Of a DNA stretch of 64,000 bases, positions 10,528-64,000 are shown one piece after another; position 1 is the stretch's first letter, and the number at the start of each line of letters is the position of its first letter. A program made the translations under genes and the position numbers. The notes beneath the pieces were generated by a model. It was given only the letters and a program-made list of their open reading frames with translations, made no database searches and had not been told where the DNA came from. Origin of the DNA: Symbiodinium sp. CCMP2592 (lineage: Eukaryota > Sar > Dinophyceae > Suessiales > Symbiodiniaceae); the NCBI GenBank assembly GCA_905221615.1, contig CAJNDT010004546.1:51001-115000 (forward strand), read 5' to 3'.

Positions 10528-10529
10528 TG

Positions 10530-35600: not shown

Positions 35601-36204
35601 TTTGACTAAGGGTTTGAGGGCTAAGGAAACTCGTGAGCAATTGCGACAGGGCGCAGTTTTTCGTGAAGAAGCTGCCAAGCGAAGGGTTCCGGATCAAAAA
35701 GATAGTGTTATCGGTGTGAATGTTTGCGAGGGCAGTTGATCCGGATAGCTCGCGGCATGCTTCATGTTTGACTTTTGAAAGTTGATTCGACCGCGCAGCA
35801 GTGTGGCTCCTGGTGCAAGCAAAAGAGCCGTTCGTTGCCGTAGCGTTGCAGCGGATGGGTGGCAAGGCTGCATTTTGTTAGGCTGCCTGCAGTAGGGATA
35901 TTGGAGTCTCCGGGTCTAAGGGTGCAGACTAGAGTCCGGGAAACAGGGCGCAGCCTTTTGTCCCTGGTTCTTAGTACGGAAAGGGGGAGTGGATTTTGGA
36001 GACAAAACCTGGGGATTATATAGGGACTACCCATTCCCTACTAAGCACCAGACAGTTTTCGTGACCCCCTACCTCCGCGCCGGGTTTGGTAACTTGGCCC
36101 AGCACGACCTGGTTCTGCGCCAGGTCTCTTAAAACCAGTTCGGAGCATTCGGCAAAGAAGGCTTCCGCGTCCCTGTGCAGCCGCACTTCCACGGCCTCCT
36201 CCAT
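23674..36204 (-). CDS. GNAT-family N-acetyltransferase, four exons, ~247 aa
   Basis: Transfers an acetyl group from acetyl-CoA to an amine; substrate unknown. Exon 1 36204-36073 (ATG; VRLHRDAEAFFAECSELVLR, then NQVVLGQV), exon 2 24690-24565 (AKAISWTPKMVVTAMELSSS), exon 3 24416-24068, exon 4 23810-23674 (stop TGA). Exon 3 holds VWQVGADIAAVSTAG and the acetyl-CoA loop motif IQLVYTSPPHRRRGCAAALV (V-Y-T-x-P-x-x-R-R-x-G-x-A); exon 4 holds the late GNAT strand AKRLYEKLGF. The order and spacing match the GNAT subgroup with an N-terminal 'LxxNQxxLG' segment. Phases agree at all junctions (0/0, 0/0, 1/1). Donors: GT (36072), GC (24564), GC (24067). Intron 1 is 11.4 kb because a copia retrotransposon sits in it; intron 3 contains a MITE. 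Intron 2 ends CCCTAAACCTCAG. The exon 1-2 join could hide one more small exon. Confidence 0.88.
23880..23998. mobile_element. Diverged family A MITE inside GNAT intron 3
   Basis: Starts GGCCCAAGGGACTTAGTAAG and ends CTTGCTAAGTCCCCTGGGCC, i.e. the same ACTTAGTAA signature with altered outer ends. It fills almost half of the 257-nt intron between GNAT exons 3 and 4, a direct example of a MITE residing in an intron. Confidence 0.7.
27124..27300 (+). repeat. 5' LTR of copia element
   Basis: Begins TGTGAATGTTTGCGAGGGCA and ends GGCTGCCTGCA. Identical to the 3' LTR except at 27228. Confidence 0.96.
27302..27314 (+). promoter_or_regulatory. Primer-binding site
   Basis: TGGCAGCGGAGCC begins one base after the 5' LTR. 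Its complement ends in CCA, as a tRNA 3' end must. The pattern resembles the initiator-Met-tRNA-type site TGGTATCAGAGC of plant copia elements, so an initiator tRNA is a reasonable but unproven primer. Confidence 0.7.
27323..28036 (+). CDS. Copia Gag, N-terminal part (frameshifted relative to Pol)
   Basis: Starts at ATG 27323, 23 bases after the 5' LTR. The first ~150 residues are Gln/Ser/Trp-rich and low complexity (WQGAGNSWDYYGSNGWSYS), then comes a structured Gag segment (YIPEYDGTTPMREYQRRVKL). The frame ends at a stop at 28036, but the next frame continues the same Gag (LWKELEPLEFLRTFQTLADF). The break is near 27998-28002, where an extra TGCAC appears to be inserted. Either this copy is mutated, or Gag-Pol needs a frameshift; a 5-base insertion is easier to explain as mutation. 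Confidence 0.85.
   Translation: MAASYSAEVQHDASQSGSGQAADQSNGNQDRQSWYSSSQWQGAGNSWDYYGSNGWSYSAPSAWAWQSAPSWGNAQWGGSWWHGAAWTDDSTSQSKNGAAESQAQASPEEADTTRRQSASTMEEDPWGVPEGTGSLDDDQGSSSKQGSAAQPKATGKDYIPEYDGTTPMREYQRRVKLFEMSTGIDPSFRAQKLMEKLSGNAWLATESIPLESLKDPQGVTRLLEHCTSGRSSSRWSF
28003..35739 (+). CDS. Copia Gag-Pol polyprotein with extra domains (~2,570 codons)
   Basis: Residue numbers count from codon 28051. Gag C-terminus; CCHC-like knuckle C-x2-C-x9-H-x6-C at ~191-211; aspartic protease with SDTCCARS (D274); 2OG-Fe(II) dioxygenase-like domain with H549-R-D551, distal H618 and R627; out-of-frame linker ~668-997; degenerate methyltransferase-like domain ~1091-1240 (LEVFDGEAQV); integrase zinc site H1423, H1428, C1456, C1459 and catalytic D1487, D1546, E1582 (D,D35E); RT with D2086 in GDISNAFLQG and HVDD at 2177-2180; RNase H with D2341, E2416, D2463, D2516. 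All hallmark catalytic residues of integrase, RT and RNase H are present, so those enzymes may be active. HVDD in place of YVDD is a tolerated variation in copia RTs. Confidence 0.93.
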   Translation, partial: LWKELEPLEFLRTFQTLADFYKGFRRSKGQEFVAYDMEFRRHGQRLEEVGAGIAGVTKAYWFLEKASLSSELRKQVVAAAGGQYDYNKLRAAVMAIVPQVNKEDDGPSTSSSGGNHRQWRRSPAKVHATTQDGDENMEAPEGEEVEELPVEALEEELQVLMTQAAKKRAQVERARGYGAPPQKGANRGETPEARERRIAELKRRMPCSACKANGRTVYGHWHSDASCPFNQKGKAEAPAGNVMAVIEEELSDSDEYGPDSSDVFFTEYLCASAVSQIEVDGHDHRLALSDTCCARSVAGEAWALRHMRHLHGLGVDVYVVDEQRPFRFGAGPRVESRYGIVMPLIVEAAQVTPWVRVSVVQQDVPLLLSKTALKGLGARLDLGDSRILLGKLGTQAPLIETASGLCGFMINDNVAFSENDMTLPPQAMLEGETEIYVPGEAEDENVEPIYKVHAEADRGSTCQKCETCARALIESRDFSYNALEMLANLLPEVKMKKQRAINQAGESRAQGLVAGVWAHGGFSGITRATRDLPWTIKYINQFLRQQVKMEWSSFVLMKNIKTNLHRDKNNAKQALSATVTFGNFQGGELWMREGSAENQPGASVDRRDREGKLVKGTVVSTREKPLVFDPRVSHGTQRWKGTRWCLTCYTSRAIVELGDNDRRLLHDLKFPLKAVDKTRTFGKVSFQCQTSSSHQEPHVLKDEVGSVNVCTPHDLSSPCVAQPESDSARSANHQPQCDSECDGLQVHCAEEEGRICRVHHGTDYRVGGGVAQARCGAAQADLDIDQAEESGGPSADRLEEVRCSSPQAPVRDSGRAGFAAAPGQSLGPLATSLVGHGDRHVGPGGYGGAEGRTRGPLLGDADVPIVSDTICDPHQQDDTGRFLRVCPIPDESEHNGSHVQWHAGKDGPGRAGERAQGQDPRGVRRRCEKGREAEQVHRVSEGPDQCGSSQDSLLDRVAGRLLRWVVGEDGSPPRRDGFRPRGFLQGDQRQSDVRGDGNDQAAPEEQGRDREVKPTFSAEATAGDTSEHRSTSESVLNCKSCNAESLPRNPDEIRARIRDGCERRRHLKKGAIKRFLGNAKAVAASVMIASTAALGMAMQSVPSTAVVRPDVLEVFDGEAQVSSSFGRWGWSTAKPVDLKLGDGKCDAERHDGLLEWVERNRPRLVVVSCARDFKSLDVIDKSKSSQEKRRLKHHREKQLPFVHFVESVFERQMKRGDDVLVSTCAASGAFREPVFQKIMNHPQVYATALDSRGNSAKDASSRFSGSHTVLWLSTALEICEELNMLSREGSRGGGLREMIHSHGRQCASAICKGYVKVLKRKDPSRVRKMLRQVAARIRNPRNRQVIRDLRWNEKNISKALARWSAVFAVDSSGGGDAHSDAPMHDPLEDETDQELLAADRVDQGGEPLRSDLAYDGVKFEVPSGRRLSPEIKEGLRKAHCNLGHPSKADLKRFLKLGGAKQEVVEAVDWMQCVSCAHSNRPKAHRTTNIPPCSITFGDEVHLDCFCIHDNTPEAYWFLSIVDRATSYHVVELLRDHSPNELHRAFDRAWAKWAGPPLRVSVDFEGGFRGKEFWNQVSESGASLVSIAGTAHWQAGKVERHNQTVKDMLRTVIRHTHVRGREQIRVAGREVCWAKNTLVREHGWSPVALVFGKEPRVFGELHSQGEPNMFHPRVGDPDSEVARRMRYRYHAKLEYVKSQARQMLARTAHNRVRKITNPRVGQMVFFWRAERKKEPSRWVGPAYVVGLQGSSAWVAIGGRCFLVAGEHLREACGDERNFGDPQIQKAIALFKKTPKEATFEDLTRQPPPSEEPLEIEQQSFAHDLARDAGDFEQGVTELPEELRRVVKRVGWTQDSSGNPVLVTRRAWAYRTPEAKYEGTSYPYRTTWGRFDGEWIWLEKDVKWSELSNPNSFLPQAPAEILITAFSRRSKREMTLDDVPVVIKRRREGEEREAAVHAVHHGKIVGKNKLKRMMDKEVPYEKIPESERAAYHEAQEKEWQSWRQYESCEVLSEEESARVLRENPKRVLPSRYVYRNKNAGLVDEQGRALPVRAKARLCLQGHLCPDSQTGQVQVDSPTVERVSTMLFLHMCISYGWSQNWFIGDISNAFLQGAPLQGKEAMYMRPPKQGLKGVGPNQILKLLKPVYGRPDAPRAWYEELAKVLTQELGFSKSYIDPAVFMLRNPEGLLIGVMIIHVDDLMVCHDGSQQAMDAIERLRKRFPFGTWERVADKPQGVTYCGKEICLRKDTQPYITLAQDGFVDGRLEEMDIEPSRKRCPEQYASEEERAEYRSIVGSLQWLSTQSRPDMSFETNQLQKRIADLRVFDLSRANKAVREVKENRMLLTFRDLGRDAQLIVYSDAGLYSSVGAEISEQECEDILQSQKDKKLVYSQKGALVGFVKRGSTEVRGESTHVNVLDWKSSTNRRVLESSFAGETHAALMGLGMGHFCQVLMSELRFGSDVVGSVDDDGWNDLVPMTLVTDCRSIYDTVHKDGQHISDKASVVHAVLLRQALTTRQVACRVRLLWVPTRHQLADGLTKGLRAKETREQLRQGAVFREEAAKRRVPDQKDSVIGVNVCEGS
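30158..31039 (+). CDS. Overlapping-frame ORF in the copia element with a topoisomerase-type zinc-ribbon-like motif
   Basis: This frame, not the long Pol frame, reads like real protein here: KKKEEYVACIMARTTVSAEE, LKHLYETVVVPDLQRPLDNH, then MCQSCQIPFVIRTNRMTRED and FFGCVRFPMSRNTM. The last part matches the C-x2-C...FxGCxxFPxxxxT plan of small zinc ribbons from the topoisomerase I tail, with the fourth Cys replaced. It stops at 31039. The Pol frame translates the same DNA as a Gly/Arg/Gln-rich linker with no domain. A donor-like GTGAGT at 30052 in phase with the upstream dioxygenase domain, and CAG at 30191-30193 in phase with this ORF, suggest a spliced product joining the two, but this is inference. 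Confidence 0.6.
   Translation: MWLSRRVIQLDQQTISHSVTVSAMVSKYTAPKKKEEYVACIMARTTVSAEELRKHDVERLKQIWTLIKPKKAAAPLPTGWKKYDVPALKHLYETVVVPDLQRPLDNHWVRWQRPLLVTEIDMWAQEVTEARKDEPEDLYSETPMCQSCQIPFVIRTNRMTREDFFGCVRFPMSRNTMALTYNGMPAKTVQDGLEKERKAKTLEESAEDVKREEKPNKFTGYPKGPTNAARRKTPCLTEWRGDSSDGSWARTGPLPVETDSDHEDSSKVINANLTSEEMEMIKQLRKSKGEIEK
35715..35891 (+). repeat. 3' LTR of copia element
   Basis: 177 bp, one mismatch to the 5' LTR. The polyprotein frame runs into it and stops at TGA 35737-35739, so the last codons are LTR sequence. Confidence 0.96.
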
Positions 36205-36254
36205 GAAGGATCCCTGTAGGGTTTCGGGTTTAGGGTTTAGGGTTTAGGGGGCAC

Positions 36255-36347
36255 AAGCTGTCGGCCGAAGGACTTGAGCAAAAACTGCTTGCGCTGCATG
36301 GCTTGGAAAACATCCGGCACAAAGGCCATGAAATCCAAAACGATATC
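36255..36347 (-). CDS. Possible exon just upstream of the GNAT gene
   Basis: After the acceptor CATAG, 31 in-phase codons read DIVLDFMAFVPDVFQAMQRK then QFLLKSFGRQL, followed by GTGCCC or by a stop provided by CCCTAAACCC. Only about 40 nt separate it from the AG before the GNAT start, so it may be the last exon of the upstream gene or a GNAT 5' exon. Family not recognised. Confidence 0.45.
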
Positions 36348-36554
36348 CTATGCTGAACTTAGAACCCTAGCAAAAATTAGAATTTTAGCTGCTTCTTAGG
36401 GATTATATATAACCAAAAACTAAAAATTATTTCTAAGTACCCCTAAGTATCGTAGAGCCTCAACCGCAAACCCCGAAGCCCGTCTCAACATCCCAGGGCC
36501 CGGTACCGAGCCCTAGGCCCCCCCAGCCCAGAAGCACAATGGGCACCTCATCCT

Positions 36555-36738
36555 GGGTTTAGGGTTTAGGGTTTAGGGTTTAGGGGTTTAGGGTTTAGGG
36601 GTTTAGGGTTTAGGGTTTAGGGGTTTAGGGTTTAGGGTTTAGGGGTTTAGGGTTTAGGGGTTTAGGGGTTTAGGGTTTAGGGTTTAGGGTTTAGGGTTTA
36701 GGGGTTTAGGGTTTAGGGTTTAGGGTTTAGGGTTTAGG
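36555..36738. repeat. Interstitial telomere-type (TTTAGGG)n array
   Basis: About 25 tandem TTTAGGG units with occasional TTTAGGGG variants, the longest such block here. Others: 21719-21837, 25499-25560, 60360-60410, 61890-62020 and 63843-63950. They occur in both orientations far from any chromosome end in this window. Confidence 0.93.
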
Positions 36739-36800
36739 TTCTTTTTTGTTTAACGCCTTTTTCCACCTGCCTGTTTGTTGGTCGGTAGAATCCACAGGGT
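36739..36800 (-). mobile_element. Short 5'-truncated retro-insert sharing its 3' tail with the 42-48 kb insertion
   Basis: On the minus strand: GTGGATTCTACC, about 20 nt of spacer, GGAAAAAGGCGTTAAACAAA and an A-rich tail. The 6.3-kb insertion ends GTGGATTCCAACC, spacer, GGAAAAAGGCGTTCAAAAAA. The common elements and their spacing suggest a shared 3' recognition tail. It is embedded in telomere-type repeats, so a target duplication cannot be judged. Confidence 0.55.
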
Positions 36801-36915
36801 TTAGGGTTTAGGGCTTCATCCCAATCCCTGGAATCAGCGCCCTAAAGTCTGAACCCCAAACCCCGAACCGCTAGACCGCTAAACAATCCTCAGACCCAAA
36901 ACCCTACAGGGAACT

Positions 36916-37001
36916 CCAGAAAGTTGGAATATGGGCTTCAGGGTAGGATACCCTGTAATTTACCATAAAGGGTTTAGGATAATCATATTCCAACTTTCTG
37001 G
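36916..37001. mobile_element. Short inverted-repeat element
   Basis: CCAGAAAGTTGGAATATG at the left is matched exactly by its inverse CATATTCCAACTTTCTGG at the right. Only one copy is seen in the window. Confidence 0.7.
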
Positions 37002-37118
37002 CTTTTACTTTCCACCCCGAAACCTCAGAAAAGCCCTGGCCCCAAAAACTTCCAAAAACCCAGAGCCGCTGAACCTCGCAGGGACCCTATACCTCCAAAA
37101 GCCCCCAAAAGCCCGAAC

Positions 37119-37211
37119 GTAGGAACCTGATTAAGAAACCTTGGGCCTTTATTCGGGCTCCTTTTATAAATTGGCGGTTATAGGCCCAGGGTTTCTTGAT
37201 CAGGTTCCTAC
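37119..37211. mobile_element. Short inverted-repeat element
   Basis: GTAGGAACCTGATTAAGAAA at the left and TTTCTTGATCAGGTTCCTAC at the right, with CTTGGGCC/GGCCCAGG inside: arms of about 28 bp with two mismatches. Confidence 0.7.
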
Positions 37212-37219
37212 ATGACAGC

Positions 37220-37320
37220 CCCAAATCTCTGCGGAGGAGCTCTGGTCCATGTCCATCTCCTTGAAGGCCTTCATCAGCCCAGCTTTCAACTCATGGGGCT
37301 CCACGTTTCCGTCCTTGTTC
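37220..37320 (-). CDS. EF-hand-containing exon
   Basis: After the acceptor TCGAG the minus strand reads NKDGNVEPHELKAGLMKAFK then EMDMDQSSSAEIW. NKDGNVEPHE supplies positions 3-12 of an EF-hand loop (N3, D5, N7, E9, E12), the first two residues coming from the preceding exon; the start leaves phase 2, as at other junctions here. It may belong to the downstream end of the 5'-nucleotidase gene or to a separate gene. Confidence 0.65.
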
Positions 37321-37656
37321 CTCGAAAAAAAGGGTTTTGGCGTTTCGGGTTTAGGGGTTGCGGGGTTTAGGGGTTTAGGGTTTTAGGGTTTAGAGCTTGA
37401 GGGCTTAAGGGTTTCGGCCTGAGTGTTGGGTATAGGGGCTTCTTGGGCTCAGCTTTAGGGTGCAGGGTGCTGGGGTTTAAAGCATCGGATCGGGCTTTGG
37501 GGCATGGGGGCGTTGAAAGGAATCTCTGCATGTGAGGGCTGCTTCAAGGGCGCCAAGACCTGAAAACCCAAAACCATCTAAACTCGAACCCTAAACCCAA
37601 GACCCTCCTCCCAGAATCCTTATTTAGAACCCTTCGGGCCCTTGAGCAACCCCTCT

Positions 37657-37779
37657 ACTTAAAGGATCATGGGACTTAGTAACTAAAGTTATTATTAGGG
37701 TAACTATACTTATAACTACTTATAACCCCAATTAAGGTACTTATAACCTTACTTACTAAGTCCCAGGATCCTCCAAGTA
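37657..37779. mobile_element. MITE-like element, family A (opposite orientation)
   Basis: Third copy, inverted relative to 3827-3950: it starts ACTTAAAGGATCATGGGACT and ends AAGTCCCAGGATCCTCCAAG, with the core CCCCAATTAAGGTACTTATA on this strand. Confidence 0.78.
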
Positions 37780-37799
37780 GAAGCCTTTTAGAACCATCT

Positions 37800-37867
37800 G
37801 CCAGGCCGCTGGTCCCAGGAGGAGAAGCCGAGCAGTTTCCTCCAGAGGTCCTTCATGCAGACCTGGA
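37800..37867 (-). CDS. Possible exon, unidentified
   Basis: The acceptor CTTGTCTTCCAG has a good pyrimidine tract. The exon reads VCMKDLWRKLLGFSSWDQRP. It lies upstream of the EF-hand exon at 37.2-37.3 kb on the same strand. No family recognised. Confidence 0.4.
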
Positions 37868-38453
37868 AGACAAGAGGGGCCCAGATTCGGGGCTAGGGGG
37901 TTTGGGGTTTCAAGGTTTAGGGCTTTACAGTTTAGGGTTCAGGGTTTGGGGTTTTGGGTCTGAGGTGGTTAGCGTTTGGGGTTGAGGGAAAGTCTCCACT
38001 ATATGGGGGCCTTGATAGATAGAATGCGCTGCTGAAGCGCCTAGAGCGCCTTATATGGTTTTGTCAAAGCGCCTTCCTAACTAGACTCTCATCTGGAAGC
38101 ATCAAGAACCAGTTTCAACCCTCTTTGTTACCCTCGTTCGCATTTGCATTGCTATTCCTTCCGACCTATCGTATCAAGCTCAGCCCTCAGGACTCAGACT
38201 AAAATGCGGGTCTTAGTGAGTAGAGTAGGGTTTTGGCTATGTTACGTAATCGTGGTAAAATTTGACGGGGACGATCAGGGGATACTATTACTAAGTATTC
38301 CGATCCCCCCCCCCCCCCCCCCCCGCTAATTGCAAGCCCGTACCCCAAGAAATCCTGCAGTTCTAACTTGCACCCCTAAACCATATGCTCAACCCGAACC
38401 CTAAACCCGACACAACACTGAAACCCTAAACTCTAAAACCTAAAGCCCGAATA

Positions 38454-38566
38454 TAGGGGCCTTAATAATTGGAATGTGATTTTGTGGCCCAGTATATATA
38501 CCATAACTATAATGAGGAACCCCCAAAATTGTATTGGTAATTATTTAAGCCCCTACGTTACAGTAC
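38454..38566. mobile_element. MITE-like element, family C
   Basis: Starts TAGGGGCCTTAATAATTGGA and ends TTGGTAATTATTTAAGCCCC, with AATGAGGAACCCCCAAAATT inside. The same layout recurs at 20730-20822, 24747-24836 and 55858-55963; in two of these it is followed by CGTTATAGTACCCTTA, implying a longer original unit. Confidence 0.72.
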
Positions 38567-38636
38567 CCTTATAGTATCCCTTCTAATAACCCTGACCCCT
38601 TGACAGGAACCCTACTCTTATTATAAAGGCTTCTCT

Positions 38637-38752
38637 ATGGGAGTTTCCGAAAAAAGGGTACCCTAATATAGTACCCTAGGTAGTAGGATCCTTATTATGA
38701 GGACCCCAAAATAAGGTACCCCTAATTTTCGGAAACTCCCATATTAAACTCT
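38637..38752. mobile_element. MITE-like element, family D
   Basis: Starts ATGGGAGTTTCCGAAAAAAG and ends CTAATTTTCGGAAACTCCCA, a long near-perfect inverted repeat. Half-copies with AGGGTACCCTA and TAGGATCC signatures are at 14105-14185 and 14636-14703. Confidence 0.75.
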
Positions 38753-38759
38753 TAGAGAC

Positions 38760-38850
38760 CCGAATCTTCGAGAGCTCTCGCCTCGATGATTGCAGGCTTC
38801 GCAAGCGCACAGCACTCCTGGAGGGCTCCAGACAGAAGGGGCTCCCTCCT
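38760..38850 (-). CDS. Possible exon, unidentified
   Basis: Minus strand reads EPLLSGALQECCALAKPAII then EARALEDSG, amphipathic helix-like. The strand agrees with its neighbours; boundaries not resolved. Confidence 0.35.
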
Positions 38851-40035
38851 AAGATTAAGGCTAATACAAATGATACGAATAGCAAGAATAAGACAAAAGA
38901 ATAGGACTAGTCATAACATAACCAGAAACATGATACTAGAAATACGAATACTAGCAATAGGAATATTAATGGGTGGTCTTTACAGATCCCATTCTGGGAA
39001 TCCTTCTTAGAGGTCCTTCGGGGATCTGGGATCCTACTTTGGGAGTCCTTCTCAGAGGTCCTTAGGGGTCGGTGGACCACAAGGCGATCCTGCTAGGGGG
39101 GGTCCTTCCAAGGGATCTCTTCGAAGTCAGTCGCATTTCGATCCTACTACCATGCAGTGGGTGGAGGAGCCTTGAAGGTGAAGGACACCAAACCCCAAGC
39201 CCTAAATTCCAAGCCCAAAGCCCAAACCCTAAACCCAGGGCCCTAAGGCTTTGGACGTCCTAGAAGGGACCTTTTTGGCTTCCCTTACAGGGACCCTAAA
39301 AACCTACAGTAGCCTTTGAAGGAGCCCTATTATAGGTCCCTTGGTGCCTCCGCACTCAAAATCTGGGCCGTTGGGTGTGGAGTCGATTCGAGTTTGGGTC
39401 GCCGTGGTCAGGGCTCAGGGTCTTCACCAGAGGGTTTCTCAAAACCTTTTGTTTTAGGGCTGAAGGTTTAGGGTTTAGGGGTTTAAGGTTTAGGGTTTAC
39501 CCCTAAACCCTCTTCTGTTCTAACAAAAAGCCTCTGTTGAAGTCTGGGGATGTGGGTGGCTCTGAGGACTGTAGGGTTTAAAGTTTGCGGCTGCCTAAGC
39601 CGAGGGCTAGGCAAAAGGAGCTCGCGGATGGACGCAAAGACGTGTTGAGAGCATTTCCCTCCAATGTTGAGTTGCTCTCCGAAAAGAAAAAACTGTCGCA
39701 AAGCATGATCTGGCTGCTTTGGTATGCAGACATTCCTATGGGTGGAATCATCATGTACTACTACGGTGACCGGTGCTGCGATAGTAGCGATCATGGTGAA
39801 AGGTGTGATAATGATTGCTCTGGCTGTCACTCGCAGCAGAAGAACCAGTACTTACGTACGGACCGTTCATACATGACTGTGGTGGAAATAGAAGGAAAGG
39901 GATAAGCACCAAACTCACCATTAACCCTCGCCCTTACACCCTCAACCCTAAATCGAAACGCCTAAACACAGGGACCTAAACCCTGAAACCTGAAAACTAA
40001 ACTGACCCTAAACATACGCACTGAACTCCGCAAAC

Positions 40036-43000
40036 CTTAACGAAGGCTTCCCCGAAATCCGAAAGCCGAACGGCTCTGAATGGCCCTGCCTCGTCGGGAA
40101 CACCAGCTGCTGTGCCGAACTCCACCTTTCCGCTCCGAGGTGGGAGCAAGAGAACCAACGGCTTGGAGTTTGGTGATTTACTTACCTTCGGTTAGTAGGG
40201 AATGGAAGAATGGTAGTAATAGTAGTTATAATTGTACCCCATTCCTCCATTCCCTACTAACCAAAGGTCAGTTTAGGGTACAGACGGTACAGGAGTTGGA
40301 AGCCTGCCCTGCTCCGGCGCACGTAGCTAAGTCGACGGCCCCAGCCCCGAAACCTTGCGCAACCAAACGTGTCAGAGAAATCCGAGAAGCCAAGGGCGTG
40401 ATGGAGTTCATGCCGAGGAGGAGCACGCGCTGGATCGCGACCTGGTGATGAAGCCAACGGCTTGCGCTGAGCTCTGGGTAAGGGGACTTGGTTGATCGAC
40501 ATAAAGAGCTTTTGACGGCTTTATCAAAGTCTCGTTGAGCCTTGAAAACGACGAGCTTTTAAGTTACCATGGCAGAATCGCACTCTTTTTCGTTCCTACT
40601 ATGGTAACTTGAAGCTAAGTTTCTCTTCAAGAACTTAGTCCTGGCCTTCGGCAGCAGGAACGCAGTTATGAGCCTAGGGGTGTTCGCACAACGCCCGAAA
40701 GCCTAAAGGCACAAGGAGCACAGTGCAAGGGGAGCAGGGCTCCTCCCTGCGAAGATCAGGATGATTTCGAGGATGACGCGGGTTTAGGGGTTTTGGGTAT
40801 CAGGGAGGACGAGAGGACGAGAAAGGGAGGATGAGAGGATGAGAATCCATGGAGACGGCGATGATCAAAACTGTTAGCCATGGTTTGGTAAAAGATTAGA
40901 GCCTCTCCCTGAAGCCAAACCCCCGACATCCCCAACCCTGTACCTTGCCTGAACCCTAAACCGAAATGCTAAGCAATAAACCCTAAAGGGTAAACCCAAA
41001 GCCCAAACCCTGAACCAATTCTAAACCCCAATCAACCCCAACATCCAAAGCACCCAACCCCGAACCCTCAGCCATAAACCCATGGCCTTGTACGTTCTGT
41101 CCGGGTCGAAGGGCTGGCTGTTGATGGTCAAGATGTTGTTCTCCTACCGTAGGATACGTATACACATATGTGTATAAATATATATATATATAGATAGATA
41201 GATAGACAGATAGATAGATAGATATAGCATACTGCAATGTAGCGTAGTGTAAAAACCTGCCTGTCTGTTGTAGTACAATACAGTACACCAAGGTATATCG
41301 CATATTGTATTGTAGTATACTCAGCAACATAGTGTGTATCGTCACAGGTTGGATTGTATCATATGCATTATGTGGGGAAACTCTGAGGTTTATGCATCAA
41401 GCACGTTCGTCGGATTCACTCCTCATGAATTGGGGTCCGAAACGCTTTGCTACGTTTCCCGCAGCCTTTGCCAAATGACTCCCGGCCACTTGGTTTTGAA
41501 ACGCAGCTCGGGGCCATTTGCACTAGTTCTTGAGGCTCCCGTCTACTTCAATGAAGCTTTAAGTGCAACGAAATCTTCCCTTTTCGTCGCGAGGCAGCTG
41601 TTACTGAGTATGCCCATCTCTGTGCCTGTGGTGATAATGACAACCACAAGGGTCATGAAGCTGCCACGGACGAACCGGAAAGCCTTAACCCCTGAAACCC
41701 CAAAGCCCGAAACCGAACTAGGTGTCGACTTCAACAGCTCCTACTGTAAGTAAATTCGGACCCGAAAACTAAAATAAAAAATCCCAAATCGATACCTAGA
41801 TTAATTAATGCTTGCATATCATCCCCCTAAACCCTAAAGCCCCAAACCCTGAAGCCCTAAAGCCCTAAAGCCCTAAACATGAATTTCTGAAATATCATCC
41901 CAGTTCATGTCGAGGCTCTGCATCTGTGCTGCAGTCTTGATCCAGATGCAGGAAAGCAGGCTTTTGCTCAGTGCCCATCCTTGGCTAAGGGAGGCCCTGA
42001 GATCCCAGAATTTAATTTTTTTCGGGGTTTGGAGGTTTAGGGGTTTAGGGGTTTGGAGTTTGGGGGCTTAGGGTTTAGGGGTTCAGGGTGCAAACTTGGG
42101 GTTCAGGGTTTAGGGCTTGGGGTTTAGGGTTTAGTAGAGTCTTGGCTATGATGCTCCAAGGATCCAGTGATTTTTTTTTGAACGCCTTTTTCCGTGCGCA
42201 CTTTCGATAGGTTGGAATCCACGTCGTGGAAGGCCTACAACCCTTCAGCTGGCGATGTTGTCGAAACTCCCTTCAAAGTACTGTGTCTGTTCCCCTTGTG
42301 GCTCTGGCCCATCACCACTCGAACCATTGCGACCCTGGTACTGCTCATCGTCAGGCACAAGGGCGATGCACCAGGGTTGCTGTGTGCTGTCACCCATGTC
42401 GGCCACGTCATCCCAGTCCACCAGACCCGGAAATTGCCGACGACACTCTGGAAGCCCGTGATCTCTCCATATGCGGAACATGCGTAGCCAATGGGCACCG
42501 TAGATCTGCTCAATGGTGGAATCGGAGATGCCCCCTTGCAGCCAGCGCGAATGAACCATAGAGACCACATGCACTGGTACACGCGTCCCCATACTCCCTG
42601 TGTTGTAGGGCCGGTTGATCGGCTCCGCAACCTCGGAATCCCTTTCCACCTTGTCGTCCTGCATATCAAGGATCTCCGGCAACTTCTGGTAAATGGACTG
42701 CCTGAAGAGGGTGAGCCACTGAGCTCCGAAGGAGCGAACAATCTCTGCATCTGTCCGCTCTTGCCTTTTCCATTGTCCGTAGATCGACTCGAAAAGCCCA
42801 TACCCCGGTCTCGGGCCACCAGGGACCAGCAATCCCGAGGTCGGGATCATGTGGCCATGTTGCGAGCTGTTGATGGAGGTGTTCAGGCACGTGTCCCGCG
42901 TCCGTGGCACCACCCCTTCGCAACTCCATGATCCCCGTCTCTTCGGGCTGGCCAACCTCCTCCTCTATTCTAGATTCTAGGCATGCCCTCGAACGGATCA

Positions 43001-46000
43001 ACGCTCACAACCGTGTCTTGTCTGGCGCTCGCAGCCGTGACGACAAGGACGATGGCTTGGTAGTCCTCAATCGGTTCTTTGATTCGAGTCCTAACCCTGC
43101 TCCCGAAGTCCTTGTGGGATCTAGATCCTTGTGAGAATATGTTGAACCTGTCAAGGACATCTTTGAGTCCGCAGGTGTTCAAGTACTTGACCACTTCAGT
43201 GACTGATTCCGCCGCGGTGGCTTCATCCTGAAGGTTGGGCCCTCTCATCTTGAGGAACTTGAAGGCAGCCACAGTCGCCAAGCAAGACTCGAAATAGGCC
43301 TCCAATGTAGAGTGGCCCTTGTCTCTGACTGCGCCATAGGTCCAAGCTAGGTTCCCCACAAATGTCCCTCTGTCGAGACTGAACACATCAGTGGATTCCA
43401 AGACCCTATGAATGGAGTTGATCTCATTCTTCGAATCTAGAGGGATGCTCTTGTCCAGAAATACATCCGTCTTGTCTCTCCAGAGCACATATGCTCTGAT
43501 TTGAAACTTGCAGATGTAGAAGGTGCCTCGAAACCGAGCCTGGTCCAAGCTGGCGGCTTGACCACTCTCTCTGTGGCAGATGCCTTCGACGATGCAGACA
43601 AGACGCTGACTGCGTCCTCATCGCCCTTGAGGGCCGCTCTGTCCAAGAATATCCCAGCATCTCCAGCACATTCCCTACTCCAAAAAGCATCGTCTCAAAA
43701 CACTCCTTTGACATGTCCATGATGGCGCTTGGGATCCTTCGTCCTGATCTGACTGGCCTCGTCGAAATCTCCAAGCTGAAGTCTCTTGAGATTTTGATCG
43801 CCGCAGCAGCTGCGTAGACAATCTCGTCCCTAGTCGCTCTCCTTGTTGCAGGCGCGGACGGATTAACTTTCGCAGTGTACTGGAGCTGATCGAAGTAGTG
43901 AGCAGTCATCTTTCTCCATGGCGTCATCCTGGCAAGTGCGGTGACGTTGGCCTTGATCTTCTTCCGAGAGAGAGGCACCACGGGCCCGATCATACCTCTG
44001 GCTTGGACGTAGAACCCACCTACTAAGGGCATGACGTTTTGCACTGCTTCCATGGGGGAGCATGACGTTTTGCACTGCTTCCATGGGGGAGCACCTGGTG
44101 TCTTCTATCAGCATGCACATGCCTTGGGCAATCGCATTCATCATGGCATTTTTGTCGACCATTGCTCTCCTCTCCTGTTCCACCAGAATTATGCTCCTGG
44201 CTGTGACAACAAAAGGGGCTACTCTGCAGGGAGCAGCTAGAAGACTGGCGTTCTCCGTGGACCAGAGGTGACCACTTCTCTTGGCCGAAACTATCGGGTG
44301 AATCGTCTTGCAAAAGGACAGAAACTTGGCGCACCGACTGAGTTGGCCACTAGACCTACGATCTTCGCCAAGTCCTCCTGATCGACAAAAGGCGCTATCT
44401 CTGCTAGCAGCGTGATGATCTAATCACAATCCCTCGCAAGTGTTCATTCAATGTGAATTCCACGTCGTAAGATCTCTTGAGCTTGTTGGTTTTAAATTTG
44501 AAATATGGCCCAGAGTACCATGGCTCCCTGAGTCCACCGTAGAGTTCCTTATGATTGAATGGCGCCTTGTCCACGGTGAGATGCATGTAGACCGAGTCAA
44601 TGCGGACAAATGTAGACTTGTCGAGCTTGTAGTCCGTGTAGACGGGTCCACCTATGTCCACCTCGTAACCCTCGAACTTCTTGCTGAAGAAGTTCGTCAT
44701 GAACTTGTGGGAGTCTAATCCTATTCCCCATTTGTCCGGGTTGTTGTGACTCAGCATGTAAAGCCTCATCCTTGCCACCAAAGTTTTCATCCTGAACAGC
44801 TTCTCATTGGCAAGCTCAGTATTTTGAGATGGCAGAAGCTTTTGGAAGACCGTGGACCCCAAGGATTTCTTGTTGATGTCAGCTCTCACCATGGCATAGT
44901 AGTTGCAACACATGATCTTCTCGAACATGAAAGGCCTGATCGTACCATCGCTCGTCAACGATTTCCAGAGGGCCTTGAGGAACATAGATTCCTCTTCTTC
45001 CATTTCTGTATAGAACTCTGCAGACAATCCTCTGGACAGGAATCCCAACTGAGCCGCCCGCATCTTGCAAAATCTCCTCCTGAGCTTAGATGTCGCTGTA
45101 GGCGCATCGTTGCCCACCTGCAACAGTCTCCATGCAAAGACGGTCGTGTTGTCGTTGGCTTCGATGGATTGCATGATATCTTTCTCCGCATCGAACTTCA
45201 TGGTTTCCATCGCCGCCGCCAAAAGCTCTCCACATCCCCTGATGCCACCATACCTCGCCATCTTGTTGCACGCAGCTAACGCTAGGGCGTTATTGTAGGC
45301 TGCAGAAGGGATGGACATGCCCTCTATAAGGGACAAGTTCATCCCCTGCAAGCCATAAGGCATTTTGAACAAGGCCATCCAGCCCGCAGTCTCGAGCGTG
45401 CCTGCCGAAGGACACCTCTGAAGAGCCAGGGTTTTGAGCTGAGTGTAGCCTGCCAATATGGATGGCAAGTGATAGCAGTCATACTCCAGACATGCACCTG
45501 CCGCAAGATGGATCGTCGGGAAATCTTCCGCGGTGTCGGTTTGGGATGTCAATATAGGCTCATGCATGTTGGGGAATGTCTTGCCAACCAGGCCGAAAGA
45601 GCAGTCGCAGGCGTACATGCTCCCCACGAACTTGCTGCCCAAGTAACCCTCGAATGACTCTTCCGCTTTCGCTATCATTTTGAAGTTGGCATAATCTTGC
45701 TCTCTGATCTTGATCTTCTGCTCGGCGACGTTCTGGACGTCGACATCTTTTGAGTTGGCGGAAACCTCGATGGAATTGTCGCCCATGAAATAGCAGAGCA
45801 AGTTGTAAGGAGGGAACTTGACCACCTTCCCGAGGGCTGCAGCGATCTCGGTTCTTGCCACCCCATTTATCGCCTTGTTGATCTTGCTCATGATGGGGTT
45901 ATTGATCCCCTGGCTCATCATCTGAGTCTTGTTGACTTCAATAGAGTAGGCGCCGTCAAATCCGGTGATCTCCACCTTCCCACACAAGCGATAGTGATCC

Positions 46001-49000
46001 CATAGGTGTATTTTGCTCCGCGTCATCATGCATTCGATCTTGATCGCAACTGTCTTCAAGGCCTCGACTATCGAGTGAGTGTAGGGTAGCACTGGGCAAA
46101 TCCCACGCCCCCGGTCCAAGCGAACAGTGTCTTCATCTCCTGAGTTAGAGCTTCCTCTGACATTGTGACCGCGAGCCCTGCGTGCTTGCTTTTCACTGCG
46201 TTGGTCTTGGATGCTCTTGCAGACATTTTCTGGAGCAGTTTGGACAGGTAGTCCTCTGCCGTGACGTCGCGACCAGACTCTCCCTTTGGGACATTCAAGT
46301 TGGACGTCTTTGAACCCATAATCCTCTCCGGAAGATTACCGAAGTCGGGGAGCGGAGCTGCGAGGTTGTAAATGTCCACCTCTGCAGCTGCAGATAAGAA
46401 CTCGTGCGCAGAGGCTTCAGCTCTCTCGAGACCGTCAGTCGTGAAGGTCAAGATGCTCTCTCTTGAGTTAGAGTTGGTCCACAGAGGGACAGCATCTGCC
46501 ACTAAAGGCGCATTTTCGGGGCAGATGTACTTGTCGCAGCTGACTACTTCTGGGACCCAGTTCATCTGAACAGGGGCGGGTCTAAATGTCGCCCACTTCT
46601 CCAGGGAAATTGCATCGAAGCCTCCTGTTCCAATTGCGACCTTGGTCTCATCGTCCAATTCGTCATAGTTCGCGATCACCTCCCGGACATCGCCCGAACT
46701 TGGATCAATCCTGTTGATCAGGCAATCTTTGATGTACGAACCCGCAAGCTGAACCAGATGGTGGGTTGCAACTCTCCCCGGGATCTTGGAAGAACCTGAG
46801 AGCAAGGAGTGGACTGTAGGTATGAATCTTCTTGGAGAGAAGGGGTAGGATCCCTTGGACCTCGTCATTCTCATTTCTCCCAAGATCATCATTCTATCAC
46901 TTGCTTCTTTTGTGGATTCCATCAGATCTATCAGCCAGACCCAAGAGGAGGGCAGTTTCCCAGTGGAAAGCACAGCTTCCTTCAGCTTTTGGTACCTATC
47001 TTGGTGCGACTTGTGAGCTCCAAGGGCAATGAATTCTCCGACCGACAGCGCCTTCTTGCAAGCTTTCGTCACCGCTATGAAGTCGGGGGCGTTTAAAAAC
47101 CATGCTCTCAAGAAGCTTTGGGAGACTCTGTTGACCATCCCGGAAGCGTTAAAGTATCCCATCCTCTCGGCATGAAAAGATGCAGTCATCGATGAATCAT
47201 GTTCAGCGATGGCTTGAAACATGTCTCCAAAGTCTTGGACTGAGAAGACAAATGCGACTTTCTTGAACTCGAAGAATAATGCCATTGGCCGAGAAATGAA
47301 CCGCCTCCAAACCCATATACATCTGTGGATTAGAAACGAACCATGTGATGCTGGTGCATGCTGCAAAGTCGAGCATCATTGAAGTGGCCATGGCTCTGCA
47401 CAGAGCCAACGCCTTCAAGCTCATCTTGGGATGATCCCTCGCGAGTGCCATCTTCTCCGAGAAAGACAACTTTGTGATTCGACTCCTCAAAAAAGAACCT
47501 ACAACCTTGTTGAGCCTCGCGATGTGGTCACGTACTCTGGGATTCTCTCGGATCTCGTCTTCCTCTTCTCCCTCATCTCGAACTTCGAGAGGTTTTCCCT
47601 CAACTTCCTCGATGTGCTTCTCTATGTCACAATCTAGGTAGTCGTCAACATCTGAGATGGCCCCCGCATCTATGGCTTTGGAGATGGCGCCAGAATTGCG
47701 CATCTTCGTAATCCACTCCTCGACCACCTCTGGGTAATAGCCTGGATCTTTGACCATGTGAGCGAACTTCATAGCCAAGGCGCTTCTGCTAGTGCGCTTG
47801 GCTTGCCTAATCGCTCTCCGAAGATGCCTCATGGCGGTTGCGTTGGAAACAATCCTCCTATCCAGCCCAAGCTCCACTTCCAGAGACGTAGCTGTGGTGA
47901 ACTTGCCGCAATTCCTGGATGCCTTTGATCTAAGTATATCGAGTCGGTCCCTCAAGGATCCGAGGAGCATTTTCGAGGACTTGATGTCCAGGACGATCTG
48001 ATAGATCTCCGCTTGGGGCATGCGCGTGCTGTAGCCGAATGACGAGTAAGAGGGGCAACATTTCAAATCTGCCTCAGCCAGGTCGTCGACATTCGAGAAG
48101 GCAGCCAAAGCTTGGGGCATCCATTTCCTGCATCCTTCTGCGGCTTTGCCCATCATGTAGGACTCAGCAGCCGTCCCAATCAGGAGCCTCTTCTTGAAGG
48201 CTGCCGTAGCTTTGATCGTGGCCCCGGCGTTAGAGATGTTTATGACTTTGCTGTCATGGAGGCCCTTGACGTCAGGCTCTTTGGCTCTCGTAAGGAAGTC
48301 TTCAATGAAGAGTGCCTTAGCTCTTGGGTCCGAGAAATGTGTGCTTTGCCAGATTTTCTCCCTTCGCTGGAGAGAGGGCTCCAATTTTTGAAGCCCCTCG
48401 AACAGCTTCGTAGTGGCACCACTTTCTGATCTGTCATTCTCCGAATTGGGAAAGACGTGTTCTTCGGAGACATCATCTATGATCTGCGCGAGTGTCTCTG
48501 GAGGGTAGAAGGGATCCAGGGATTAGGGGTGAAGGCTGTCGGGTGAGGTTTCTCAGTCTTGGGCAGAAGACGGCGCTCCAATGCAGAATCTCAAGGGGAA
48601 AACCCTAAACCCTTGACCCTTAAACCCTAAGATCCTAGACAGTTCTCCCTCATCCCCATGCTTTCCAAATGCTAAACGAGCACTCCTGGAAAAGATTACT
48701 CAAGAGTTTGGGGTTTAGGGTTTAGGGTTTCGGCTTTAGGGCCAGCATTCACCCAAAAGAAAGCAGTGGCAAGAACAAACAGTAGTCGTTGTCGTCGTAG
48801 TGGTGGATCCAGCCGCAGCATCAGCAGTAGTAGTCGCAGTAATAGTCAGCGTCGTCATCATCAACAACAACATAACCAGACTACCAGTAGGAGCACTACT
48901 TTGTAATATTAGAAGCAGAAGCTGCAAAAGAATAAGGCGATGGTGTTGATCTCAAGAACTATGCGAAGAAACTAGAACACGGATAAGGACAGGATGCTTG

Positions 49001-52000
49001 GCTGTGGAGTGACCCCGACGCTTCTTCATAAAGGGCTACTTTCCAGAACGATGGACAACATGGTCTGATGTGCAACACATCCGAAAGCCATGATACCCCA
49101 AGATCTTGAACTTTGAAAACATATCGGATCCTCGTCAAGGCGGCCTGAAGCTTTAAGTGCGGTTGCTGGTTCCTCTGTGTGCACTCTGAATTCGTGGCGC
49201 CGGTGTCCGTTGGACCCTAACCCGAAACGCCTGAACCCTAAACTGTAAACCCTAAACCCGTAAACCCCTGAACCCTAAACCCCTAAAACCCGTGAACTGA
49301 ACCTGTAAACGTAGAAAACCCCACTAAACCCCCTGGTGGTTAGTCGGGAATGCGGGAGTGGATTATGGGGACTATTATTGGGGATTATATAGCAACTACT
49401 ATAGGGATCCATTCCCCCATTCCCTACCAAGCACCACTAAGTAAACCCCACGACCCAGCTTCTAGCTCATGGTTGGGACAGGATTAAAAACCTACAGTTT
49501 TATTCCTTATTGGGTTTAAGTACCCATAAAAGTGTGAAATGTTTCCCAACTTTGACCAAGGCTTCCGTGAGAACTTGACGGCCTCCTGCAGCACGGAGCC
49601 CTTCATCGGCACCACGGCGATCGCCTTCGGAAGGTCGCCGGTGAGAAGTTTCGGGCTTAGGATTTAGGGTGTAGGAGTTAGGGGTTTAGGGGTGTAGGGG
49701 CTTTGGAGTTTCAGGATTTAGGGTGTTGGAGTTAGGGGTTTAGGGGTGTAGGGGCTTTGGAGTTTCAGGATTTAGGGTGTTGGAGTTAGGGGTTTAGGGG
49801 TTTCGGAGTTTTTGGATTTAGGGTGTAGGTGTAGGATTTAGAGGTTTAGGGGTGTAGGGGTTTCGGAGTTTTGGGATTTAGGGTGTAGGATATAGAGGTT
49901 TAGGGGTGTAGGGGGTTTCGGAGTTGTGGGGTTTGGGGTTTAGTTTTTCAGGTTTAAGGCTTCGGGTTTGGGTGTAGAGGTTAGGGGTGTAGGGTTTGGG
50001 GCTTCGGGTTTGGTGTTTAGGAGAGTTTAAGGCTTTTGGTTTAGGGCTTGGAGTTTAGGGTCTTGGGCATCGCAAAGCTAATATTGTTCTTGCCTTCATA
50101 AACAGAGCCATGCTGCCAAAAAAAGACTTAGATGCTAAACCCCAAACCCTAAACCCCAAACCCTAAACCCCAAACCCTAAACTCCAAAACCTCAACCCTC
50201 AATTAACCCCTCAACCCCAAAACCTCACAGAAGGGTCGATCTCAAACCTAAACCCCAAACGCCTCAACCCCAAAACCCCCTAAGCCCTAAACCCCTAAAC
50301 CCCAAACGCCTCAACCCTAAACACCTAAACCAAAAACCCCAAACCCCTGCACCCTAGCCCCACTTAGGGAACCCCTAAACCCTATAGAGAGTCCACCTGA
50401 GCCAGGCCTCCGCGAAGGCGAGCTCCTTGTAGAGATCACCCAGGGTGAAGGGTCCCGCCTCATAGTCCGCTCTGCCACGGACGTCGCCTCCGTTCCTGGG
50501 TTTCTTTCGGGAGTTTAGGCTTCTTGTTGCTGTTGAGGGTTTAGAAGGCCTCTTTTTGGCGTTGAGGGCCTAGGGTTCTTATTTGGGGGTTTAGGGTTTC
50601 GGAGTTTAGGAGTTTTAGGGGTGTTTTGTGGAGTTGTTTCGGGTTTAGGAGTTTAAGCTTCTGCTTGGGAGTTACTTTAATTCTGAGGGGCAGGGGGGGT
50701 GGATTTACTGTGATTTATGTTAAGGCATTGTGATTTTTGGGGGTTTAGAATTCGAAAGGATTCTTCGGGCTTCAGGATCTAAGGTCAATGGCGCTCGAGG
50801 TTTGCAGTTACGGGTTTGGGCACTCACACTACACCCTTGACCCTAAACCCTAAACCCTAAATAAGGCTTAGGAGCTGATCCGCATGGGAATCTGCTCTTC
50901 AATGGTGATTTCAGCGGCACGCGGTTGAGGGTGCAAAGTTTAAGCTGTAGGTGTAGGGGTTAGGGGTTTGGTGTGGGGTTTGGCCTTTAGGGGTTTCGAG
51001 TTTAGGGTTTAGGGTTTAGGGGGTTCGAGGCTTCTGCTAGAATCCTTCTACAGCTTTTGCGGACAAGTGGAATGCCTCAATCTGTCTGTCTTTGTGCATG
51101 TTGCGTTATGCTATGTGCTGTGCAGGTTGCACTGCTGGGGGCTTTGGACCAGAACCTTAAACCCTGAACCCTGAAAGAGGTGGGTACAAGGCATCTGAAT
51201 AGGTCCAATCCGGCCAGGTGCATGACCGCCACATCGGCACCATGCTGCTGCAGGCCTGCAACGGGAACTCCTCCCCCCTAAACCCTAAACTTCCGTGGCC
51301 ATAAGGGTAGTTCTCGAAATTTGGACCCCCTTTTGAGGTCCCCAATGTAATACGGCACCCTTGTCAATCGGACCCAAGCAGATACCCAATCTAGAGAACT
51401 ACCCATAAGGCAGGATCGTGGGCTGAAGATTCTCTTGCTGTCCTTTGTCTCTGAGCAACGCCATACAGCTAATCCATCACGAGGCAACAATGATGATACT
51501 GATAAGATGGTGTCCAATATGGTTGAAGGTTGAAAGTGTCTGGATTCAATTAAAACTAAAGTTCATGCATATACTCTGAACTCTAAACCCTAAAATGGCT
51601 TTGGACATTAAGATCCCAGATTTCAAGAGTCTTGAGGCAAAGGCGGTCCCAAGGCTTCTGGGTGAGGGCCCTGGGATTGCGCAGTCAACCTGAAGCCAAC
51701 GAAGCCAAAAGTCTCCCCTGCAGTGAGGCTCACTTTGGTGAGCATACTTCTATATATATATATATACACACACACATCCATACATACATACATATACAGA
51801 AAAATACGTGTGTGTGTGTGTGTGTAGATATTGTACAATGGTTATACATATATATATATATATACACATATACATATGTATGTTTGTATGCTTACAACTC
51901 AAACTCTGCTTTCGAGCTGGAGGCTGCGACTCGGCAATAAGCGCTTTGATGGTTTAGGCCTCTGCAGTGTTTAGAGATCTTGGGTTCAGCCAACTTGTCG

Positions 52001-55000
52001 GGTATCATGGGGAACTGAAGGTTAACCTTTTGCTTATAAAGGGGTTATAGAGCGGCTATACTACCCAAAAAAAGATTAAAGGTTACCTACTCTACTACTA
52101 CTAGGTCAGAGAGGTTGCAAGATATGGGGAACACACGACTTTTCGTCTTCTGCGCAGTCGATGTACCACTGCCACTGGCGAGTCAATCACCCTTCAGTGA
52201 CATCTCAAATCTTGTCTCCTCCCGCCTGGGCTCCACACAGGTTGAAAAGAACCTAAAGCCCGAACAAGAAGCGAAGACACCTAAAATCACTGCATTTATT
52301 TTCAGCGATGACCCCAAACACGATTAGGTCCAGAACCAGCGACACCTCGAATGCCAATTTACACCCTGAGCTATACCTGAGATCTGAACCATGCATACAG
52401 CTGAACCCCAAAATTCTGAACCCTAAAACCAAGACAGCTGAAGCCCCAAGACCTTGTAACACCTCAGAGCAGCCAAAACGGTTTGCCACGGCGAAACCAA
52501 GTCACACCTTTCCACAAAGGAGCCAAAGAGAGGCGAATGTACAAATCGGACTCAAAACTGACCTGAGCTGTTTCCCGGAAGGAGGGGTGCAGGATTCCAA
52601 TGGTATTTGAGGTATGTGAATTTCAGAAGTTACGGCTGGCAGCCTGGAGGTTTGGGCTCGGCGGTAAACCCCATCGGCGCCGCTGCACGTAAGTTATCGA
52701 AGCCATGGGGGCAGTTGCAAGTGGCACAAGGCCTATCAGCCATAAACTCCGAAATTCTAAACTAGGAAACATATTCCTGCAGAACGTAACGGGGACAGCC
52801 CTCTAAACAAGCTGACATGATATACTAAACCCTAAGGTCCCTAAGGCCTAAACCCTAAAGCGATAGATGCACTGAGTGGCCATTGCAAGTTGAGACCGGC
52901 CCACTTCACCCAATATCCGGCCCAGCCGTCGGCGATATTCTCGTAGTTGTCGTAGATCTCGGCGATGTAGATCACGGAGGTGTTCGCCCAGAAGAAACCC
53001 CAATGAGTCAGGGCCGAAATCCTGAGATTTCTCATGTGCTCAGAATCTCACGGCCTGTGAGCACAAAGCATACCTTAAAGTAATATCCCTATACTGTAAG
53101 GGGCTTCCGCATCCTTCGTTTGTGCGCTATCGCCCTAAATTTCAAACTGTTGAACCCCTACACCATAAACCCTCAATCCGAAGCCCCGAAACCCTAAACC
53201 CTCTAACACGTAGGCTGGAGGTTCTTCCCTTAAAGGCCCAAATGAGACGCGAGCCGAGCATAAGCTACCGCTGTTACAGTATATCACGGTATACTCCAGT
53301 AGGCTGTAGTAGATTGTAGTAAGTTGAAGGTCATGACAGATTATCGCATATTATTCCCAAAAACCCCTCTGGGGTCTCGTTTAGTGCTCCAACGCGAGGT
53401 GCGCGATATCGGGCCCTGTTTTGACGGAAGAGCTTTAGAAGACTAAGCGGTGCACGGGCCTTGATGTCGGGCGCGCGGATCGGGTGCGCGGACGGTACGC
53501 GGTGGAGGGCCGGGAGGGCGGGGACAAGGCGCGGACGGTGTGTGGGGGAGGGCAAGACTTAACGACTGCGTGCGGGGAGGGCAAGGCTTGGCGGCTGGCT
53601 GCGTGGCGGAGGGTGAAGGCTTGGCGGCTGCGCGGGGAAGGGTTGGGGGAAGCGCGATATCGAGTGCGCGGACGGTGCGCGTGGGACGGCCGGAGCTTGG
53701 GGGAAGCGCGATATCGGGTGCGCGGACGGTGCGCGCGGGACGGCCGGAGCTTGGGATAAGCGCGATATCGGGTGCGCGGACGGTGCGCGCGGGAGGGAAG
53801 GAGCTTGGGGGAAGCGCGATATCGGGTGCGCGGACGGTGCGCGCGGGAGGGCCGGAGCTTGGCGGAAGCGCGATATCGGGTGTGCGGACGGCGCGCGCGG
53901 GACGGCCGGAGCTTGGGGGAAGCGCGATATCGGGTGCGCGGGCGGTGCGCGCGGGACGGCCGGAGCTTGGGGGAAGCGCGATATCGGGTGGCGGACGGTG
54001 CGCGCGGGAGGGAAGGAGCTTGGGCCTGGGTGTTCAGCAGGCGACCGCACCGCTGCCGCAGCTCGAAGATTGCAGGACGTGAGAAAAAAACGTGCGGACT
54101 TCCATTCTGGCAGTCTTCTTTTCGGCTGGGTTTTCGGGTTCCCGGCTTGACCTTGTTATTGTTAGTGTTATTATTAGCATTACTATTATTATTATTGTTA
54201 TTATTATTATTACTATTATTATTATTATTATTACTGTCATTATTTGTATATATATATATATATATGGGAAATTACGCCGGGGCTTGCTCTGATGTCGAAA
54301 TGCTGTATGAAATCTCTCTGAAACCTAATAATTACAATTATAAACTCCCCCAACAGTGAACCCAAATCCATCGACCGGGAATCAGGAGAGCCGTCTTGTA
54401 GTGGCGACGCGCCTGCAATGGCTAACTACGGGTCTGCTGCAACCGCTTGTTTCTGAGTTTCGGGCGGCTACAGGTTTAGCAAGGTCCCTGGTATATGAAG
54501 GTATATGTATGATATACAAATGGACATATGAATTTCGGCACGCAAATTAACTCGGAACGAATTATAGGTTAAAATAAGGTATGTATGTATCTACACTGTA
54601 TACATGGGGTCCTTATAGACGAGTTCGGGTCCATACTCGGCTCCCGTCTGAGATCGAAGCATTAAAAGACAGGCCTCAGACCTCAAATCTCCGAGGCCTG
54701 AACCCCAGAGCACATATAGGTCAGAATAGGTCTAGTTTTCTAGGGCTTTAGTATGGGGGGTGGGGCTGAATAATGCGAATAGGATGTTGGGGTATACAAA
54801 GATTTAGATGTAAGTTCGGAAACCCTGTGGTGTTGTGTTGGTAATATTCAAGCCAGTGCCCGCCTTTGGCATGGACTTGGGGCACTCCATCTTGCTTGAC
54901 AGCCAGGGTAGTTCAGAGTTCGGAGTTTAGGTGAGCATTCCGTTTGGAGTTTAGAACGGTGTAAACCTTGTAGAAACACTCTGGGATGCACTGTTTTCGA

Positions 55001-63831: not shown

Positions 63832-64000
63832 CTCAGAGAAGTTGGGGCTTAGAGGTTCAGGGGGTTTCGGGGGGTTTCGGGGTTTAGGGGGTTTAGGGGG
63901 TTTAGGGGGTTTAGGGGGTTTAGGGGGTTTAGGGGGTTTAGGGTTTAGGGGTGATGACTGCAGAGATGATGTTGCAGCATGTGGGATTTGATGTCGGTAG

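Follow-up and report, generated by a model that had tools for sequence, protein, structure and literature searches.

Target-primed reverse transcription is the established mode by which long interspersed nuclear elements (LINEs) insert. Chimeras formed when such elements switch templates are described in reports on WEIRD/Mg-SINE/MGL of Magnaporthe grisea (PMC2104539) and on mammalian LINE-1 (PMC13174262). In dinoflagellates, DinoRNAV insertions are reported from 17 of 18 Symbiodiniaceae assemblies (Veglia et al. 2023, PMC10235124)—RNA viruses thus do enter these genomes—and retrogenes carrying a relict spliced leader have also been described (PMC12014239, PMC6050394). Here, we analyze an insert at 42160–48524 of a 64,000-nucleotide window of Symbiodinium sp. 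CCMP2592 (contig CAJNDT010004546.1, positions 51,001 to 115,000; the window is the whole stretch analyzed, and coordinates are those of the window), which carries a long, broken coding frame and a 3′ module matching DUF6822. The locus is a real insertion derived from RNA and is probably young, and a fusion of two RNAs is a likelier origin for it than a copy of one; the type of event is already known, and the long protein matches no family searched.

The insert shares features with each of these systems, as far as the cited reports describe them. Like the LINE template-switch chimeras, it appears to join different transcripts directly within one pair of flanking repeats (14-bp there, 13-bp here) with a LINE-type mark at the edges; unlike them, neither of its modules is a recognized LINE, small nuclear RNA, or short interspersed nuclear element, its 5′ part corresponds to 5.5 kb of coding RNA, and the parent of neither half was found. 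The DinoRNAV endogenous viral elements are similarly RNA-derived, lie in a Symbiodinium genome, have incomplete and broken frames, and are proposed to have been retroposed by host elements. However, they carry dinornavirus-homologous RNA-dependent RNA polymerase (RdRp) or capsid genes, neither of which was found here, and the insert shares none of their genes; a relict spliced leader is reported within 500 bp in 6 of 26 of their RdRp copies, whereas none was found at the insert. Dinoflagellate retrogenes are also intronless copies of polyadenylated RNA, but at the insert no relict leader and no parent were found, and there are several frame breaks. Compared with Pfam DUF6822 (PF20708) itself, the 3′ module lacks the first 174 of 288 profile positions and fits the remaining 114.

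The edges of the insert are marked by a 13-bp direct repeat to which no strand is assigned, GGATCCAGTGATT at 42160–42172 and GGATCCAGGGATT at 48512–48524, identical at 12 of 13 positions; on the coding strand, the left copy lies at the 3′ edge and the right copy at the 5′ edge. Nine A's on the coding strand (42171–42179, minus strand; T9 on the plus strand) form a poly(A) that abuts the left copy and has two bases in common with it; T runs of nine or more occur just twice in the whole 64 kb, and such A runs once. Target-site duplication at both ends and an abutting 3′ poly(A), two of the features that define a LINE-mediated processed retrocopy, are both present. The first-pass annotation of this DNA had noted the same poly(A) and an 11-bp direct repeat (10/11), which is contained in the longer repeat, and its proposal of an RNA-derived, LINE-type insertion is supported by the repeat, the poly(A) next to it, an intronless coding run, and a frame that stays open up to the 5′ edge. 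As a control, we drew random pairs of similar-sized stretches and searched them for a 13-mer pair matching at 12 or more of 13 positions, skipping and not counting pairs less than 200 bp apart; such pairs occurred in 52 of 1,500 draws in the repeat-rich flanks and in 5 of ~1,500 inside the element. The repeat, with the A-run adjoining one copy and the open frame running out at the other, amounts to good evidence. The putative nick between GGATT and AG on the plus strand was placed by eye.

A codon score trained on four of the clear pieces follows a coding run on the minus strand, in one frame at a time, from 48522 to ~42973 through seven frame breaks, near 47330, 46100, 44420, 44300, 44060, 43670, and 43540. 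Stop-free minus-strand frames of 439, 435, and 643 aa, together with shorter ones, tile the run. The first piece (47320–48522) belongs to the 439-aa frame at 47206–48522, with a positive score to ~47320; by the same score, the second (46110–47375), in the next frame, belongs to the 435-aa frame at 46071–47375, and the third and longest (44407–46098, 564 residues) lies within the 643-aa frame at 44407–46335. Short pieces with four closely spaced frame changes follow (43440–44423; frames 44294–44419, 43866–44423, 43427–44104, and 43440–43694 by codon score), and then a last piece (42973–43530, in the 215-aa frame 42973–43617) with its stop at 42970–42972, on which the score, from a model not trained on that piece, is positive to ~43000 and then falls; in this lower part of the long frame, a codon model whose training set contained nothing below 43700 agrees. 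The codon signal requires no intron. The frame meets no stop before the 5′ end of the insert, its first stop being located in the flank, and its first methionine is near codon 122; it is thus probably 5′-truncated, as in a truncated reverse transcript. Over parts of three pieces, methionine makes up 4.2% and alanine 9.5% of residues, and no 19-residue segment of the pieces reached the usual threshold for a transmembrane stretch.

Decay of this frame has been slight. The pieces contain no stop in 1,658 codons, which under neutrality allows at most ~72–100 substitutions (1.45–2.0%) at 95%, an optimistic bound because the pieces were picked for being open. At the break near 44060, a 31-bp tandem duplication (44029–44090, no strand) is still perfect, suggesting that it is recent. 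The earlier description of a decayed, intronless coding run with at least six frame breaks is thus upheld with the qualification that decay is slight; its extension of the run to 42160 is not, the long frame ending at its stop 42970–42972. Assembly error was considered as a source of the frame breaks and rejected, short of proof, given that the window also contains an unbroken copia-type frame of 2,599 codons and that one break is the 31-bp duplication.

Beyond the stop lies a separate 239-aa open frame (42248–42964, minus strand), whose C-terminal DUF6822 match at 42488–42811 (E 1.3e-27, 97.2 bits, gathering cut-off 30) covers profile positions 175–288; Pfam found no match on 42812–42964 or in the alternative frame 42669–43004. 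Codon usage of this module deviates from that of the long frame. The model trained without sequence below 43700 scored +0.26 on the last long-frame piece (177 codons) and +0.08 on the 108 codons of the DUF6822 match, which is flanked by values near -0.03. In synonymous usage, the DUF6822 module (189 codons) scored -0.025 on a long-part-versus-copia scale, lower than every one of 500 blocks held out from the long part, whose minimum was -0.010, and among the values spanned by blocks held out from the copia open reading frame (ORF); GC content at first codon positions was 0.614, versus 0.478 in the long part. The change in codon usage and the cut of DUF6822 at profile position 174–175 indicate that two modules meet between 42811 and 42973, and the simplest way for a single insert to acquire such unlike modules would be for a LINE reverse transcriptase to switch template. 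A ~2,000-residue protein of no recognizable family, as first annotated, therefore persists as ~1,840 codons, the 3′ 0.8 kb being a separate module of a Pfam family. None of the papers searched names DUF6822.

Profile searches of the segments between breaks, the check that the first-pass annotation had proposed, gave a family for the 3′ module and only noise for the long part. In Pfam, the long pieces returned only sub-cut-off matches to DUF7770 (E 0.025–0.03), OpcA_G6PD_C (0.01–0.074), and BCA_ABC_TP_C (0.5–0.59), and no polymerase, integrase, or nuclease domain; the best PHROGs matches (E 0.17 and 0.27) were to entries without known function, the NCBIfam match to T4 RNA ligase (E 0.01, 15 bits against a cut-off of 242) was noise, the Protein Data Bank (PDB) sequences yielded nothing better than 4j41 at E 1.5, and PADLOC gave no match. 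Viral contigs were scanned eight times, each scan using six exact 8-residue patterns with confirmation by tblastn, a design that would miss distant relatives; the scans returned 1, 59, 5, 2, 7, 9, 3, and 0 pattern-matching stretches, none of which was confirmed. Bacterial and archaeal genome contigs gave six such stretches, again none confirmed, and phage records gave no match. Homology to a known virus protein, by which endogenous viral elements are recognized, was thus not found in Pfam, PHROGs, PDB, viral contigs, or phage records, nor did Pfam reveal the dinornavirus RdRp or capsid families that characterize DinoRNAV elements. The pieces contain one isolated GDN resembling a polymerase motif C, with no convincing motif A or B and with surroundings that do not fit. 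An RdRp reading of this lone ‘MGDN’ near 45780 was rejected, the spacing to possible motifs A and B being unfit when judged by eye.

The locus is represented in public data by P0001, a 1,371-residue ‘unnamed protein product’ from a 619,814-bp contig of Symbiodinium sp. CCMP2592 (taxid 631055, Dinophyceae; PMC8045281 uses the strain name S. tridacnidorum CCMP2592). It was the sole record returned for a stop-free piece of the long frame, at 100% identity over 88% of the piece, and it maps to the minus strand as eight exact segments from 47285 to 42248, which identifies the window as part of the genome of this alga and bears out the first-pass guess of a dinoflagellate. The model thus has eight exons and seven introns of 44–339 nt—five spanning frame breaks, one removing 93 nt of continuous frame, and one skipping the stop at 42970—and begins only ~1.2 kb into the coding signal. 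Judging from the sequence, we read it as a probable prediction artefact over a broken locus, its DUF6822 annotation apparently joining two unlike modules. Its 90%-identity cluster has one member on one contig, and no further copy of the element was found within the window. Searches for a second copy reached E 10 for none of 8,000 scored candidates among proteins of 353–1,123 residues and, at E up to 10, retrieved only P0001 itself among 7,079 candidates of ~1,017–3,235 residues. Given the slight decay, a host parent should remain near-identical, and none was found in either length range of annotated proteins. An annotated parent of those lengths is thereby disfavored, whereas one that is unannotated, shorter, or longer is not. 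Of the sources first suggested for the RNA—a virus, a host mRNA, or a new mobile element—the searches make two less likely in their annotated form, a host parent of these lengths and a multicopy element, and they name no virus.

The reading that we favor, as a whole only tentatively, is a two-template LINE-type insertion in which the long RNA came from a foreign source. A LINE-type reverse transcriptase would have nicked the plus strand after ...GGATT (AG next) and primed on a poly(A) RNA, copying first the 3′ end (~0.8 kb) of a host-like mRNA ending in the DUF6822 domain. It would then have switched to a second, long RNA, of which at least 5.5 kb would have been copied before synthesis halted within the coding frame, and a 13-bp target duplication would have closed the insert. 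The long RNA would have had an intact frame of ~1,840 codons or more and a source outside the annotated gene set of the host, most likely an undescribed RNA virus; PMC9927876 reports marna-like and toti-like RNA viruses in cultures of dinoflagellates. The insert edges, the poly(A), the coding frame and its breaks, the DUF6822 match, and the shift in codon usage are seen in the sequence; we infer the LINE type of the enzyme, the template switch, and the viral source. In its boldest form—that the locus is the first fossil of a lineage of RNA viruses of coral-symbiont dinoflagellates, formed when a LINE jumped from a host DUF6822 mRNA to a viral RNA, and encodes a large, methionine-rich protein (~1,840 residues or more, its pieces free of transmembrane-like stretches) in no known family—the idea is a rather doubtful one. 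Several observations weigh against the favored reading. The 13-bp repeat does only modestly better than chance in the repeat-rich flanks (52/1,500) and alone is evidence of modest weight; the decay bound is biased by the selection of pieces for openness; and the junction codon test is based on only 189 codons, with the codon-model score there partly reflecting amino-acid composition. P0001 handles both modules as a single gene. Pfam, PHROGs, and PDB gave no RdRp or capsid match, and the eight viral-contig scans gave no relative; a relict spliced leader was not found at the insert, although 5′ truncation would remove one. Homologue searches were bounded by shared words and by protein length, and a relative search with the DUF6822 piece returned none, even of its existing family.

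An origin free of any virus is a real possibility, if a somewhat unlikely one: a LINE may have retrocopied an ordinary, lineage-specific (‘dark’) host mRNA, as one long or two fused transcripts. Retroposition is reported as rampant in dinoflagellates (PMC11453091), 183,516 putative pseudogenes are counted in S. tridacnidorum and dark genes reported for the lineages concerned in PMC8045281, and the DUF6822 module is host-like in codon usage; what speaks against this origin is that the near-identical parent predicted by slight decay is missing among annotated proteins of 353–1,123 or ~1,017–3,235 residues, together with long-part codon usage unlike that of the one other long frame of the window, the copia-type ORF, itself a poor proxy for host genes. 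Whether viral or cellular, a single RNA in which DUF6822 is encoded by a second frame downstream of the long one would account for two co-stranded modules with frames 5 bases apart, one repeat pair, and one poly(A), and P0001 joins both modules in the same way. We nonetheless consider this unlikely, because codon usage and first-position GC differ between the modules and DUF6822 is cut at profile position 174–175, as in a truncated copy.

The eight-exon public model would be consistent with a host gene undergoing decay at its original site, or with a living gene whose introns are short and unusual, as P0001 has them. Most of what the seven introns of that model remove, however, has a coding score in one frame or another; five of them lie over frame breaks, one falls within continuous frame, and one over the stop at 42970; with ~1.2 kb of 5′ coding signal dropped, and the poly(A) and repeat left to coincidence, such a gene is very improbable. 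We give scarcely any credence to the last alternative, that the locus is part of an undescribed mobile element with intact copies elsewhere in the genome: single-copy status was indeed drawn from annotated proteins only, but no further copy emerged among the proteins searched or within the window, and no domain of a polymerase, integrase, or nuclease was recognized in the long part.

In the surroundings of the insert, six-frame Pfam scans of 36000–42160 and 48525–53402 found no host gene, with the limit that a domain-free spliced gene would escape them, and their sole match was a low-complexity, sub-threshold one to Lamprin (17.2 bits against a cut-off of 34); the placement of the insert in an intron of a gene with 50–350 nt exons, as first annotated, is therefore unsupported. 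Pfam gave no match in the three plus-strand frames of 57998–64000, and Rfam and tRNA scans of the window were empty. Elsewhere in the window, an unbroken 2,599-codon frame at 27940–35736 (plus strand) matching the reverse transcriptase family RVT_2 (E 6.1e-16) appears to be an intact, long copia-type polyprotein. Telomere-like heptamers abound in the window as a whole (TTTAGGG n = 170, CCCTAAA n = 120, against 3.8 expected per strand) and are present on both sides of the insert. Diverged internal repeats, 66–74% alike, occupy 6859–10913, a strongly skewed stretch in which open frames on the two strands overlap, and about seven copies of a GC-rich 54-bp unit, 92% alike, lie at 53643–54024 with several frames open.

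If the long RNA was a host RNA, the locus would be a clean, young, fused retro-insertion that has been annotated as a normal gene, and would show how such loci enter databases as proteins, here as P0001. If, as we tentatively favor, it was viral, public dinoflagellate genomes would bear the imprint of viruses that cannot be named by similarity, and the hallmarks of reverse transcription would offer a homology-free route to them. Whichever reading holds, the slight decay of the insert predicts that intact relatives of its source survive.

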